Of a stretch of DNA of 26,252 bases, positions 9,065 to 18,118 are shown piece by piece; the stretch's first letter is position 1; each line of letters opens with the position of its first letter. The notes under the pieces are model-generated. The model was given only the letters and a program-made list of their open reading frames with translations. It made no database searches and had not been told where the DNA came from. The position numbers and the translations under genes were made by a program. Origin of the DNA: a virus; IMG/VR virus record IMGVR_UViG_3300024518_002903, positions 1-26,252 of that record; one strand, given 5' to 3'.

Positions 9065-9155
9065 CCTCCGTCCCTCCGAGGATCACGGGGAATCCGAGTC
9101 GGCTGACGACGAACGCGGCGACGAGGTCGGGGGCGTTGTAGACGAGCCACCTCAT
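9057..9155 (-). CDS. Very small hypothetical protein
   Basis: A 32-aa frame starts at ATG 9155, overlapping the stop of the ParB-methyltransferase gene (ATGA), and ends inside the start region of the small terminase gene. The peptide (MRWLVYNAPDLVAAFVV, then SRLGFPVILGGTEGG) is hydrophobic with one Arg in the middle. It keeps the unbroken chain of stop/start overlaps, which is the main reason to list it. The ribosome site is poor, with AAGG too close to the ATG. I do not recognise it. It could simply be a translational bridge to the terminase genes. Confidence 0.45.
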   Translation of the reverse strand: MRWLVYNAPDLVAAFVVSRLGFPVILGGTEGG

Positions 9156-10651
9156 ACCTTCGCCGCGACCGCGTTGGTCTGCGCCTCGCATCTCGAGAGG
9201 ACGATGTCGCAATACTTCGGGGACAGTTCTATCCCGAGGCACTCGCGACCGAGCGCGGCAGATGCGACCATCGTCGAGCCGCTCCCCATGAATGGATCGA
9301 ACACAACGTCCCCCGGATCGGTCAGGACGCGAATGAAAAAGTCTGGCATCGACACGGGGAACGCTGCAGGGTGGCCGAGCGCGTCCCTATTCTTTCCGAG
9401 CGTGAGGACGTTCGACGGGTAAGCCATGCCCCCGAGTAGATTGTCGGGGATCCCGCCGTTGTAGAGTCCCTTGCCCTGATTGTCGGCGAGTCGTCCCGCG
9501 TCCTTGTTGTTACGGTATCCCCCGGTCTTACCCTTCGTGCCCTGCTGTTCGTAGGTTCGCTCATTGTGACCTGCAGCTGTCTTGCGGGAGTCGACGCCCT
9601 TCCGCCTCATCCCCTCAGTGAATCCGTGTTCCTGTACGTCCTCCATGTTCGGATGGAGGCCGCTCCAGTCTGGGACGTCGTCGGTCGGGTGCATGACCCT
9701 GTCGGGGTAGAATTTGTGTCGGCCGCGAGCGAAGTGGAATATCGGCTCCCAACCGTTCTTGAATCGCTGCGCGGGGGTCTTGGGGGTTCCGCCATGCGAC
9801 CAGATAAACTCGTCGACGAACCGCCAGCCCCACTCCCTGACGTGAGCTAGGACGAGATCCCTGACGTAGAGAACGCGCTGCCCGTCCTCGCAGTGCTCCT
9901 TGATATTGACGAGCCATGATCCATCGTCCGACAGATTCCTCGAGACATTGTCGGCGACGTCTGCGAACCATTCGACGAACCGGTCAGGGTGTATCCCCTC
10001 GAACCCGCTCTCCGTGTCGTATTCGCGCTGCTGCGCGTAGGGGGGCGATGTGATCCCGAGCGTCACCTGGCGACCCTCGAGCAGGCGATCGACGTCCTCG
10101 CTCGAGGTGGCGTCCCCGCAGATGAGCCGATGCTTGCCGATCTGCCAGACGTCGCCCGGTTCGCATCGCTGCTCGGGCTCGGGTAGTGCGGAATGACCGG
10201 CTGATCCATCGTCGACCCCGAGATCCAGGGGCTCTTGGATGAGCTTGGCGAGCTCGTGATCGTCGAATCCCGTCATGGCGAGATCTGCACCCTCGGCCTC
10301 GAGACCCTTCAGGAGCTCGCGGAGGGGCGCGTCGTCCCAATCGCCAGAGATCCGGTTGAGCGCGAGGTTGAGCTGCTTCTCGCTGGGGTCGTCGAGGTCG
10401 ACCCACGCGACGGGGAGCGAATCGAGACCCTCGGCCTGCGCCGCCTTGACTCGCTGATGCCCGCCGACGATCCGACCGGTTCGGCGATTCGCGATGATCG
10501 GCTCGACGGCGCCAAAGAACCTCAGCGAGCGCCTCAGGGCGGCGAGGTCATGATCGTCGATCTTGCGAGGATTGTACGGCGCGGCCATTGACGCCAGCTC
10601 GGAGACTGGCATCGGCTCGACTTCTAGGCAGTCGGGCGCGGCCGACGTCAA
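9152..10651 (-). CDS. ParB-like domain fused to DNA methyltransferase (TSPPY, N6-adenine or N4-cytosine type)
   Basis: The product is 499 aa. Residues about 10-150 form a ParB/Srx-type N-terminal domain with NPRK and the nucleotide-binding motif GGHQR (63-67). Residues about 165-490 form an amino-methyltransferase with TSPPY (201-205, catalytic) ahead of the SAM-binding motif DPFMGSGST (about 452-460), the beta-class order. It likely methylates phage DNA against host restriction. A TTG at 10651 overlaps the upstream stop (TTGA) and has GAGG 7 nt before it; ATG 10612 is the alternative. It sits directly ahead of the terminase genes, a common phage placement. The methylated base and target site are not readable from sequence. 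Confidence 0.9.
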   Translation of the reverse strand: MTSAAPDCLEVEPMPVSELASMAAPYNPRKIDDHDLAALRRSLRFFGAVEPIIANRRTGRIVGGHQRVKAAQAEGLDSLPVAWVDLDDPSEKQLNLALNRISGDWDDAPLRELLKGLEAEGADLAMTGFDDHELAKLIQEPLDLGVDDGSAGHSALPEPEQRCEPGDVWQIGKHRLICGDATSSEDVDRLLEGRQVTLGITSPPYAQQREYDTESGFEGIHPDRFVEWFADVADNVSRNLSDDGSWLVNIKEHCEDGQRVLYVRDLVLAHVREWGWRFVDEFIWSHGGTPKTPAQRFKNGWEPIFHFARGRHKFYPDRVMHPTDDVPDWSGLHPNMEDVQEHGFTEGMRRKGVDSRKTAAGHNERTYEQQGTKGKTGGYRNNKDAGRLADNQGKGLYNGGIPDNLLGGMAYPSNVLTLGKNRDALGHPAAFPVSMPDFFIRVLTDPGDVVFDPFMGSGSTMVASAALGRECLGIELSPKYCDIVLSRCEAQTNAVAAKV

Positions 10652-15561: not shown

Positions 15562-16055
15562 TGCAGCTCTACAAGATCGCAGACGAGATCGAGCGAATCC
15601 TCGCGTCCGAGGTGGACCGCGAGACAGGTGAGATCTCGGACGAGACGCTTGAGAAGCTCGCAGAACTCGAGATGGGTCGCGACGCGAAAGCGCTCGCGGT
15701 CGCCGCGTACCTCAAGGGCGAGCTGGCCGAAGCGGAGGCCGGGAAGGTCGAAGCCGAGAAGCTCAAGAAGCGGGCGACCGTTCACGAGAACCGCGCGAAG
15801 CGGCTCGTCGAGTATCTCCAGAACTGCATTCCGCAGGGATCCGATCCTATCTCAGACGCTCGCTCTAAAATAGCTTGGCGGAAGAACCCGCCGAAGGTGT
15901 CGATCCCTGACGCCGAGGCAGTCCCGCCGAAGTTCCAGCGGGTCGTTCCCGAGACGCGGGCACCCGACAAGAAGGCGATCCTCGATGCGCTCAAGGCGGG
16001 CGCGTCGCTTCCGTTCGCGGTGCTCATGCGATCGAACCGGCTAGAGATCAAGTGA
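15561..16055 (+). CDS. Siphovirus Gp157-like protein
   Basis: The product is 164 aa. It has the Gp157 family layout: MQLYKIADEIERILA at the start, a long helical coiled coil rich in Glu/Ala/Lys (EAEAGKVEAEKLKKRATVHENRAKRL), then a short strand region KIAWRKNPPKVSIPD and an end region reading PETRAPDKKAILDAL and LMRSNRLEIK. The family occurs next to single-strand annealing or SSB genes in many siphoviruses and has been linked to phage resistance, though its biochemistry is unclear. It starts within the stop of the upstream gene (TGATG). Confidence 0.85.
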   Translation: MQLYKIADEIERILASEVDRETGEISDETLEKLAELEMGRDAKALAVAAYLKGELAEAEAGKVEAEKLKKRATVHENRAKRLVEYLQNCIPQGSDPISDARSKIAWRKNPPKVSIPDAEAVPPKFQRVVPETRAPDKKAILDALKAGASLPFAVLMRSNRLEIK

Positions 16056-16756
16056 TGGCGGTGCCCGAGCCGTACTACAAAGTTCTCGACAAGGGTGGCG
16101 AGGCGCTCTACGGCCGCGGGGCGTGGGGGTTGCCGCGCGGTAGTCGTCCAGGCTGCTGGGAGAAGGCTACGGGCGAACTCGCAGTCTGTCGAAACGGGCT
16201 CCATCTCTGCCGCCGGGGCGACTTGGTTCGTTGGCTCGGGCCGCGGATCTTCGAGGTCGAGACTCGCGGCGACGAGTTGATCGTATCGTCCGACAAGGTA
16301 GTCGTGCGCGAAGCCCGCCTAGTCCGTGAGTTGGCTTGGGACGAGAGGGTCGCGCGCCTATTCGTTGCGGACTGTGCTGAGCGGGTGCTCCCGATCTTCG
16401 AGGCACAATACCCCGACGACGATCGGCCCCGAATCGCGATCGAAATCGCGCGTCAGTTCGCGATGGGTGCTGTTGACGATGCCGCGAGGGCTGCCGCGGG
16501 GGATGCCGCGTGGGCTGCCGCGGCCGAAGCCGATGCCGATGCCGCGGCGCTCGCGACCGCGATGGCGGGGGCTGCCGCGTGGGCTGCCGCGTGGGCTGCC
16601 GCGGGGGATGCCGCGAGGGCGAGGTTTCCCGTGAGGGCTGCCGCGTGGGCTGCCGCGAGGGCGAGGTTTCCCGTGAGGGCTGCCGCGTGGGCGGCCGCGG
16701 GGAGGGCTGCGTGGGCTTGGCAAACCGAGCGTCTGTTCGAGTACCTCGGAAAGTGA
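16055..16756 (+). CDS. DUF7666-like protein with Ala/Trp-rich helical repeats
   Basis: The product is 233 aa. Residues about 1-95 match the DUF7666-like layout of phage proteins: LDKGGEALYG, ELAVCRNGLHLCRRGDLVRWLG, IFEVETRGDELIV and KVVVREARLVREL. From about residue 135 the chain becomes Ala-rich helical repeats built on AAAWAA and AARAR units, ending WQTERLFEYL. The repeat part looks like a regular helical solenoid. A 42-bp tandem duplication lies inside it. The ATG at 16055 overlaps the upstream stop (TGATG); a GTG one codon earlier is possible. Function unknown; similar proteins recur in actinobacterial and other phages. Confidence 0.65.
   Translation: MAVPEPYYKVLDKGGEALYGRGAWGLPRGSRPGCWEKATGELAVCRNGLHLCRRGDLVRWLGPRIFEVETRGDELIVSSDKVVVREARLVRELAWDERVARLFVADCAERVLPIFEAQYPDDDRPRIAIEIARQFAMGAVDDAARAAAGDAAWAAAAEADADAAALATAMAGAAAWAAAWAAAGDAARARFPVRAAAWAAARARFPVRAAAWAAAGRAAWAWQTERLFEYLGK
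16610..16693 (+). repeat. 42-bp tandem duplication in the Ala/Trp-rich gene
   Basis: Two adjacent 42-bp units (16610-16651 and 16652-16693) differ only at the last base. Each encodes AARARFPVRAAAWA, so the frame is kept. It lies in a longer stretch (about 16484-16711) built from imperfect GCTGCCGCG(T/G)GGG units. Near-identity of the 42-bp units shows a recent duplication by slippage or unequal recombination, while the shorter units are older and diverged. Length variation between related phages is expected here. Confidence 0.85.
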
Positions 16757-17187
16757 CGCTCGTGTGGGCCTGCGTGCTGATCTCGTGGTCTAGCCCTGGC
16801 GGGGAGTTCGCGGGCTACTACGTCGGGGTCGACGGCGTGGGCATAGCGGCTGTTCTCCGTACTGGCGGCAGGGTTCGCAACGAGTGGGAGTTCTGCCCGA
16901 TCGAGAAGTACCACGCTTTCGAGCTTCGCATCGCGGCATACCCGCAGAGCGGGAACCACGGCCCCTGGAGCGACCCGCTGTTCGTGCAGCGCATCCACAA
17001 CTTCGATGCGAACGGCAGCGGGGCGACAGACGGCGGCGACTTCGGCGCGTTCGTGAACGCATGGGGGAGTAGCGCCCCAGCTTTCGACGCGGACGGCGAC
17101 GGGGTCGTGGGGGGCGGCGACTGGTCCGCGTTCGTGACGGCGTTCGGTTGCGAGTATCTCGAGAGCGGGATCGCGGTGTGCCTGTGA
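16753..17187 (+). CDS. Fibronectin type III domain plus dockerin-like tandem EF-hand protein
   Basis: The product is 144 aa. The GTG at 16753 overlaps the upstream stop (GTGA); the longer open frame upstream is a shadow of the Ala-rich gene. Residues 1-80 look like a compact Fn3 domain (LISWSSPGGEFAGYYVGVDG, FELRIAAYP, GPWSDPLFV). Residues 81-135 hold two 12-residue calcium-binding loops, DANGSGATDGGD (85-96) and DADGDGVVGGGD (112-123), each followed by a (F/W)xAFVxAxG helix, as in dockerin-like tails of Planctomycetota proteins. No signal peptide or anchor is seen. It is joined by overlap to a small membrane protein gene. The domain call is good; what it binds is unknown. Confidence 0.68.
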   Translation: MTLVWACVLISWSSPGGEFAGYYVGVDGVGIAAVLRTGGRVRNEWEFCPIEKYHAFELRIAAYPQSGNHGPWSDPLFVQRIHNFDANGSGATDGGDFGAFVNAWGSSAPAFDADGDGVVGGGDWSAFVTAFGCEYLESGIAVCL

Positions 17188-17375
17188 GCGCACGTTTGCT
17201 ATTCGCGCTCGGGCTGCTCGGCCTCGTGGGCATGGTGGTCGCGACCCTAGTGGGGGCACGGATTCTGGACGACCGCTGGCAGGCGAGTAAGGCGCGATTT
17301 AAGCGACCAGACGGCCCGCCGCGGACGCTGCTGGAGGGGGAGCCGGACGGGCAGCCGGTCAAGTGGAAGTGGTAA
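17184..17375 (+). CDS. Small single-pass membrane protein
   Basis: The product is 63 aa from the GTG at 17184, which overlaps the stop of the Fn3 gene (GTGA). One hydrophobic segment (LLFALGLLGLVGMVVATLVGA) is followed by a basic tail (DDRWQASKARFKRPDG) ending PVKWKW. It is most likely an inner-membrane peptide. Its end carries the ribosome site for the overlapping methyltransferase-region frames, and its stop is followed directly by an ATG (TAAATG). A role in host takeover or exclusion is possible but not shown. Confidence 0.6.
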   Translation: MSARLLFALGLLGLVGMVVATLVGARILDDRWQASKARFKRPDGPPRTLLEGEPDGQPVKWKW

Positions 17376-18118
17376 ATGGCGTGGCTCTACGTCCCATCAC
17401 GGGGCTCGCACTTTGTGCCGGGGTTGGAGGACTCGAGCTTGGGCTCAAGCTCGCCCTGGGAGAGCGATACCGAACTGTCTGTTACGTCGAGCGGGACGCC
17501 TACGCAGCGAGCGTCCTCGTGGCGAGGATGGCAGACAAGGCCCTGGATTCGGCTCCTATCTGGGACGATCTCGAATCCTTCGACGGCAGATGGTTCCGCT
17601 CGACAGTGGATATTGTCTCTGCGGGGTTCCCGTGTCAGCCAGCAAGCACAGCAGGAAAGCGTAAGGGCGACCGAGACGAACGCTGGGTCTGGCCTCTCAT
17701 TACAGACATTCTTCGCGACACGCGACCGCGAGTTATTTTTCTGGAAAACGTGCGTGGACTCATCCAATGCGGACTCGCCCAGGTTCTCGGATCGCTGGCC
17801 GATCTCGGGTTCGATGTGGAGTGGGGAATGTTCAAAGCGTCCGAGGTTGGAGCGCCGCACTTCCGACCCAGGGTGTTCATTCTTGCCCACTCCCGCAGCG
17901 AGCCCCTACGGATCGAACCGGGGCGGGGGGGCGGGCAGGATCGGGAAGATCCGCCTGAGCCTGCGCGGGATTTTCGGTGGTCCCGAGAACCCGGAATACA
18001 TCGAGTGGATGATGGGACTCCCTACAGGGTGGACCGACTGCGATGCCTCGGGAACGCCGTGGTTCCCCAGCAAGCCGCGCTCGCCTTCCGAGAGCTCTGG
18101 GGGCGGATAGCGACATGA
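17363..18118 (+). CDS. C5-cytosine DNA methyltransferase, compact form
   Basis: The product is 251 aa. It shows C5-methyltransferase motifs in order: motif I GLALCAGVGGLE (14-25), CYVERD, motif IV GFPCQP with the catalytic Cys (C91), motif VI FLENV (126-130), motif VIII HFRPRVF (166-172) and motif IX/X RLRCLGNAVVPQ (225-236). Only about 45 residues separate motifs VIII and IX, so the target recognition region is very short for the family. It likely protects phage DNA from restriction. The frame is open from GTG 17363, but GTG 17381 is equally possible. Its DNA is also open in a second frame (17376-18110) with motifs of its own. Confidence 0.82.
   Translation: MEVVNGVALRPITGLALCAGVGGLELGLKLALGERYRTVCYVERDAYAASVLVARMADKALDSAPIWDDLESFDGRWFRSTVDIVSAGFPCQPASTAGKRKGDRDERWVWPLITDILRDTRPRVIFLENVRGLIQCGLAQVLGSLADLGFDVEWGMFKASEVGAPHFRPRVFILAHSRSEPLRIEPGRGGGQDREDPPEPARDFRWSREPGIHRVDDGTPYRVDRLRCLGNAVVPQQAALAFRELWGRIAT
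17376..18110 (+). CDS. Overlapping second-frame protein within the C5 methyltransferase gene
   Basis: A 244-aa frame runs nearly the full length of the methyltransferase gene. It has the better start of the two: an ATG right after the previous stop (TAAATG) with GGAAG 6 nt upstream. Its sequence resembles a recurrent phage hypothetical family: MAWLYVP near the start, SSWRGWQTRPWIRLLSGT, RWPISGSMWSGECSKRP, LPTPAASPYGSNRGGGAGR and NPEYIEWMMGLPTGWTDCD. The last two are segments that in other phage C5 methyltransferases, as I recall, sit in the recognition region. Either both frames are translated, or this frame preserves pieces of an ancestral methyltransferase. A pure shadow is possible because the other frame is constrained. 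Confidence 0.45.
   Translation: MAWLYVPSRGSHFVPGLEDSSLGSSSPWESDTELSVTSSGTPTQRASSWRGWQTRPWIRLLSGTISNPSTADGSARQWILSLRGSRVSQQAQQESVRATETNAGSGLSLQTFFATRDRELFFWKTCVDSSNADSPRFSDRWPISGSMWSGECSKRPRLERRTSDPGCSFLPTPAASPYGSNRGGGAGRIGKIRLSLRGIFGGPENPEYIEWMMGLPTGWTDCDASGTPWFPSKPRSPSESSGGG

Follow-up and report, generated by a model that had tools for sequence, protein, structure and literature searches.

M.EcoHK31I (YGGCCR), part of a restriction-modification system, is a C5 methyltransferase made up of two polypeptides, the smaller of which has only motif IX (PMC3404938). The coding sequence of the small chain reportedly lies within that of the large chain, in a different frame (Lee et al. 1995, NAR 23:103). 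M.EaeI is likewise a two-polypeptide C5 methyltransferase. M.AquI (CYCGRG) also consists of two chains, which are divided between motif VIII and motif IX (PMC3404938). Among mycobacteriophages, the overlap of Corndog gp6 and gp7 was described in 2015 by authors who left undecided whether it yields two products or is read by a frameshift (PMC4351075). Hidden HNH endonucleases of the ShiLan type lie within phage methylases (PMC11855218). We found no description of a widespread, fully overprinted C5-methylase family in the open-access literature searched; subscription journals were outside the search.

Herein, we analyzed a DNA stretch of 26,252 nucleotides, referred to as the window (IMG/VR virus record IMGVR_UViG_3300024518_002903, positions 1 to 26,252). 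The ORF list of the window revealed a 750-base stretch of phage DNA occupied by two ORFs in overlapping frames, both open. We consider it very likely (probability about 0.87) that this locus encodes, in fully overprinted genes, the two subunits of a C5-cytosine DNA methyltransferase resembling EcoHK31I, with the reservation that translation, assembly and activity are inferred.

Results

Organization of the locus and its start signals

The window was assigned to a tailed phage on the basis of the neighboring genes, which encode a portal, a terminase large subunit, a major head protein, a Gam-like protein and a DNA polymerase exonuclease subunit. No endonuclease was recognized among the scanned ORFs of this phage genome. 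A viral contig (L001) carries the same locus with 100% identity in both frames.

All features of the locus described below are on the plus strand. The alpha ORF (17363-18118, frame 0, 251 codons, GTG start) encodes the C5-cytosine methyltransferase core, and the beta ORF (17376-18110, +1 frame, 244 codons, 244 aa, ATG start) encodes the putative recognition region and motif IX. The alpha start is ambiguous, as GTG occurs at 17363, 17369 and 17381. A Shine-Dalgarno-like GGAAG (17365-17369) precedes the beta ATG by 6 nt and, by inference, probably serves the alpha and beta starts alike. An earlier note on the sequence had claimed overlapping ORFs with a +1 frame open for 244 codons, starting at an ATG with GGAAG 6 nt upstream; the ORF coordinates and the sequence confirmed this. 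The TAA (17373-17375) of a small upstream ORF (17148-17375) abuts the beta ATG at 17376, and this abutment may represent translational coupling of the two ORFs.

The start region was also inspected in homologues. A start codon was found no more than 5 codons away in 129/129 loci having a WLYVP-type beta N-terminus, and the alpha start lies 4 nt upstream of the beta start (ATGnATG) in most WLYVP-type homologues. Two almost coincident starts on one mRNA are the likely mechanism of expression, although this is an inference and so is the translation of beta.

Three other ORFs of the window were recorded. A second methyltransferase of the phage, with a ParB-like N-terminal domain and a DNA methyltransferase domain, lies at 9152-10651 on the minus strand (phrog_498, E 2e-88). 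The ORF at 16052-16756 (+) encodes an Ala/Trp-rich repetitive protein matching Imm5_like (PF21805, E 1.2e-9), Imm5 and DUF7666; its other frames and strand are likewise open because of the repeats. The ORF at 16510-17187 (+) has no Pfam match, and its tail, NFDANGSGATDGGDFGAFVNAWGS...DADGDGVVGGGDWSAFVTAFG, looks dockerin-like. Dockerin-like repeats are common in Planctomycetota, and the tail is possibly a hint to the host.

The alpha frame encodes a methyltransferase core without motif IX

Alpha matched phrog_363 (E 6.8e-59) and PF00145 (E 2.6e-32), the latter covering only profile positions 4-168 of 324. It contains motif I (LALCAGVGG, 17405-17431, alignment A2), motif IV with the catalytic GFPCQ (17624-17638, invariant in A2), motif VI (ENV, 17744-17752, with E and N invariant in A2) and motif VIII (RPRVFILA, 17864-17887, A2). 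Membership in the C5-cytosine DNA methyltransferases (PF00145), as defined by motifs I, IV (PCQ), VI (ENV) and VIII, is thus met. Motif X (GNAVVPQQAALAFRELWGRI, 18050-18112) was identified in A2 and is predicted by AlphaFold2 to form the C-terminal helix. Alpha failed the criterion of having motif IX and a target-recognition domain in one chain with motifs I-VIII, as both were absent from it in alignment A2 and in the AlphaFold2 model.

The AlphaFold2 model of alpha (63 homologues) had a mean pLDDT of 84.8. The pLDDT exceeded 90 in most of residues 10-180 and fell below 50 in most of residues 188-226 (window about 17930-18046), and the motif X helix (residues 225-248) was near 96. The best PDB match was M.HhaI (Z 21.4, rmsd 3.3, 201/327 residues aligned). 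The model thus predicts that alpha is a methyltransferase core and a motif X helix linked by a disordered stretch that replaces the recognition domain, and that the small domain is the part absent from alpha. A complete enzyme would require both alpha and beta, which is inferred without assay data on activity or assembly.

The beta frame carries motif IX and a putative recognition region

Beta matched phrog_1008 'DNA methyltransferase' (E 2e-18). It had no Pfam match, and neither single-sequence nor profile searches found a match among PDB sequences. Modeled alone by AlphaFold with 78 homologues, beta gave a pLDDT of 57.9 and a pTM of 0.22, too low for a fold search; the poor model may be a consequence of beta folding on alpha, but this is only an inference. 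No relatives are known for the N-terminal half of beta.

Three segments were distinguished in the remainder of beta. The segment FSDRWPISGSMWSG (17784-17825), of the form TWPxSGxMRxG, is conserved in homologues, as evidenced by alignments A1 and A3 and by profile matches to Smooch gp6 and Anthony gp79. LPTPAAS and the putative target-recognition region occupy 17883-17987, an assignment based on the dN/dS of the variable region; the alpha frame is predicted to be largely disordered here. Motif IX, NPEYIEWMMGLPTGWTD, lies at 17988-18038. The equivalent position of M.HhaI reads RECARVMGYPDSYK, and in split and single-chain phage relatives this segment is in frame with motif X.

The motif IX pattern NPxxxEWMMGLPxGW was found in three gene layouts. 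In the single-chain genes (Graduation gp47, PFR1 Orf45 and Starcevich gp69), the pattern sits between the core and motif X (GNGVVPQQ), in one frame with both. In the split pairs (Smooch gp7/gp6, Anthony gp80/gp79 and L201), motif IX and motif X are both in the second gene, which is in the +1 frame. In the class to which the window belongs, motif IX is in beta and motif X in alpha. The beta profile matched the true frame of the split genes (Smooch gp6, E 1.5e-28; Anthony gp79, 2e-19) and of the single-chain genes (Starcevich, 1.5e-13; PFR1, 5e-8; Graduation, 6e-5). For its C-terminal part, beta shares homology with the stretch of single-chain and split phage methylases that contains the recognition region and motif IX. 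Given these homologous segments, together with the selection pattern for the recognition region, we concluded that beta carries motif IX and the recognition region.

Two claims of the earlier note are thereby corrected in part. It had assigned motifs I to X to one frame, which holds for I-VIII and X of alpha but not for motif IX or a recognition domain, neither of which is recognizable there. It had also read LGNAVVPQ as motif IX/X; this corresponds to motif X, and the beta segment described above represents motif IX. Its idea that the recognition region, which the plain methyltransferase frame lacks, is to be found in the +1 frame was supported.

The +1 frame is open beyond chance

By synonymous shuffling inside alpha, the open +1 frame of the window alone had P = 0.007, which is unlikely but not impossible. 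Loci found via beta had alpha in the overlapping frame in 175/175 cases. Since these loci were selected by beta, we did not take this as proof and used an alpha-selected sample instead. Selection by alpha only gave 80 loci, 68 of which were scorable, having both landmarks (motif IV and motif X). A +1 stop was absent from motif IV to X in 64/68, against 6.4 expected, and in the remaining 4 the stop sits after the motif IX of beta. In the alpha frame, 0/68 of the scored loci showed a pattern resembling motif IX. AT-rich members were open like GC-rich ones: in an Acinetobacter plasmid (GC 0.43), 236/241 codons were open (P<0.001), and the openness in phage Lily (GC 0.43) also had P<0.001.

A beta profile built without the window was then compared with 500 alpha-preserving synonymous codon shuffles. 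Beta of the window scored 231.7 bits vs. 116 +/- 12 for the shuffles (maximum 160), giving z = 9.6. The shuffled mean is itself high, indicating that alpha alone accounts for some of the similarity in the +1 frame, though not for the excess. Across the family, the dual openness is beyond chance.

Selection passes from alpha to beta and back

We determined dN/dS in 90 disjoint homologous pairs by OLGenie-like counting, with sites sorted by their effect in both frames. The window itself has no close non-identical relative among the sequences analyzed, so all figures refer to homologues only. From the start to motif VIII, alpha had a dN/dS of 0.12-0.30 and beta of 0.53-1.05. Within this part, beta was modestly constrained before motif IV (0.53-0.72) and unconstrained in the first half of the stretch from motif IV to VIII (1.02-1.05), so part of beta may be passive. 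Beyond motif VIII, the main selective constraint moves to the beta frame. In the variable region, alpha was neutral at 1.02 (interval 0.91-1.15) and beta strongly constrained at 0.20 (0.16-0.26). The values around motif IX were 0.62 for alpha and 0.45 for beta, and past motif IX, at the site of the alpha motif X, 0.22 and 0.78, respectively. The control +2 frame was unconstrained throughout (1.2-2.8).

A model-free comparison was made as well. The fastest-changing codon position was the third of alpha in motifs I-VIII, the first of alpha (the third of beta) from the variable region through motif IX, and the third of alpha again at motif X. In the homologues, purifying selection is thus handed from alpha to beta and back to alpha along the gene, and both frames are separately selected. 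The codon-position analysis of homologues that the earlier note had proposed found excess constraint in the second frame, and the result it had named as refuting, stops or no constraint in that frame, was not obtained. The first of its two options, two overprinted proteins, is supported by homologues open in both frames, conserved tandem starts, separate selection and the separate annotation of beta in relatives.

Comparison with described systems

The locus meets both features of the EcoHK31I type, namely a large chain with motifs I-VIII and X beside a small chain with motif IX, and a small-chain ORF lying in another frame inside the gene of the large chain. This likeness is drawn by analogy, without a sequence comparison; a Salmonella phage homologue used as query against E. 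coli genomes and plasmids matched other loci, not EcoHK31I. Unlike in M.EcoHK31I, the locus is in a phage genome with no recognized endonuclease, the overlap with beta takes in virtually all of alpha, and the selection pattern locates the recognition region in beta; in M.EcoHK31I this region is predicted in the large chain. M.AquI is likewise a C5 methyltransferase in two chains, but its small chain has IX and X; in the window, X is in alpha and beta lies inside the alpha gene. L201 and the pairs Smooch gp7/gp6 and Anthony gp80/gp79 show an AquI-like division of motifs, yet have long overlaps.

The Cluster O mycobacteriophage pair was examined through Smooch gp7/gp6, of the same virus species as Corndog. 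As in the window, the second gene is in the +1 frame, begins inside the first and has TWPxSGSMRxG, LPTP and motif IX; however, only the end of alpha is overlapped and motif X is in the second gene. Graduation gp47, PFR1 Orf45 and Starcevich gp69 have the same core and a motif IX segment homologous to that of beta, but all their motifs are in one frame and their +1 frame has stops. A search for relatives with Graduation gp47 returned only itself. ShiLan-type genes also have an alternate-frame protein inside a phage methylase gene; there, in contrast to the window, it is an inserted homing element of patchy distribution and not part of the enzyme.

Distribution, annotation and unusual relatives

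Relatives were found in viral contigs, in contigs labeled Alphaproteobacteria (mainly Rhodobacteraceae), Chromobacterium, Chloroflexi, Planctomycetota, Opitutaceae, Eisenbacteria and Parcubacteria, and in phages or plasmids of Mycobacterium, Paenibacillus, Salmonella, Vibrio, Acinetobacter, Leptospira, Stenotrophomonas and Synechococcus. The double gene is thus spread over phages and bacteria from many phyla; the relatives recovered are a lower bound, and the true number is larger.

Which of the two proteins the databases list, alpha or beta, differs between genomes, and often only one is listed. In phage Lily, the depositors annotated the +1 ORF as 'g62 internal gene'. The label 'DNA methyltransferase' is given to the beta frame in Mycobacterium phage Bipolar and Stenotrophomonas phage SOVA965 (L012 1920-2471, L013 1986-2486), where the catalytic alpha frame carries no annotation.

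Some relatives deviate from the common arrangement. In the +1 frame, the single-chain genes of Starcevich (L269 801-1904), PFR1 (L266 855-1901) and Graduation (L177 1432-2259) retain beta-like sequence interrupted by stops, matching the beta profile at E 1e-31, 7e-18 and 1e-22, respectively. These relics suggest that the three genes descended from an overprinted form by a change of frame. In a Leptospira plasmid copy (L181 1447-2124), the tail of the alpha frame, PINWSAVEPLETHKFQQWL, resembles beta, and a stop closely follows EWLMG in the +1 frame, as though an indel had exchanged the tails of the two frames. An E. coli prophage homologue (L271 1501-2262) is a PGAP pseudogene with an internal stop. 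In the viral contig L006 (2897-3323), a large internal deletion fuses the region just before motif IV straight to motif X, and both frames are still open (142 and 105 codons).

Discussion

The locus is best explained as an overprinted two-subunit enzyme. In this view, alpha would be the AdoMet-binding catalytic core with motifs I-VIII and the motif X helix, and the stretch from VIII to X would be a flexible linker. Beta, starting beside the alpha start in the +1 frame, would supply the small domain that alpha is missing, comprising the target-recognition region and motif IX. Ribosomes would initiate at the two overlapping starts on a single mRNA, and alpha and beta would come together as a single active enzyme, probably an orphan phage methylase shielding the phage DNA from host restriction. 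That both frames are open, conserved and separately selected is shown, as are the division of motifs and the homology of the C-terminal part of beta; the missing part of alpha is likewise established, with its fold predicted by a model. The translation of beta, its binding to alpha, the activity, the site specificity and the biological role are inferred only, there being no expression, mass-spectrometric or activity data.

We considered whether the open +1 frame is merely a by-product of conserved alpha codons and high G+C. The locus is GC-rich, shuffled alpha still averages 116 bits against the beta profile, and a non-coding +1 stretch upstream of beta in phage Anthony gives a weak match to that profile. 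However, the shuffle tests, the AT-rich members and the neutrality of alpha where beta is constrained all argue against it, and the alpha-selected loci together with the overlapping dN/dS on 90 pairs rule it out; this explanation is already refuted for the family and all but excluded here. Alternatively, beta could be a real overprinted protein with another job, such as anti-restriction, regulation or chaperoning. Its N-terminal half without known relatives and with modest constraint (dN/dS 0.53-0.72) would fit, as would the lack of a Pfam or PDB match, but the C-terminal part is homologous to exactly the part of methylases that alpha lacks, and alpha co-occurred with beta in every beta-found locus. 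We regard this alternative as very unlikely.

A further possibility is a single polypeptide made by programmed ribosomal frameshifting, with alpha read to motif VIII, the +1 frame for the recognition region and motif IX, and perhaps a return for motif X. The earlier note had offered such a frameshift, joining core and recognition region, as the alternative to two proteins. The order of selection fits it exactly, a G7 run is present in the window at 17925-17931, and the mycobacteriophage authors considered it for the related Corndog gp6/gp7 pair (PMC4351075). Nevertheless, motif X could be reached only by two shifts of opposite senses, and slippery-like runs occur in just 7/112 homologues near motif VIII and 9/97 around motifs IX-X, so the criterion of a conserved slippery site was not met. 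In addition, the beta frame is already open and under constraint before the handover, the beta start codon is conserved, beta is annotated with an internal start in Lily, Smooch and Anthony, and alpha stays open across the variable region up to its own motif X. Because two shifts would be required, slippery sites are not conserved and beta can be initiated at a start codon of its own, a frameshift is not needed, and we consider it very improbable.

The overprinted two-subunit reading also permits a bolder claim: that the family is among the larger and older classes of fully overprinted prokaryotic genes, with selection alternating between frames and with repeated fusion and splitting of the chains. 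We would put this joint claim a little below an even chance. If it is true, DNA recognition evolves in beta with the alpha frame drifting neutrally, and the +1 relics of Starcevich, PFR1 and Graduation mean repeated chain fusions and splits via frame changes.

Long same-strand overlaps are taken for annotation errors, and here the databases are split between alpha and beta. Many phage 'DNA methyltransferase' annotations may thus denote half an enzyme, and alpha alone, made from a recoded gene, is expected to be inactive. The choice between two products and a frameshift in the mycobacteriophage methylase pairs (PMC4351075) becomes testable. The family provides a clean natural case in which selection is handed over from frame to frame within one gene.
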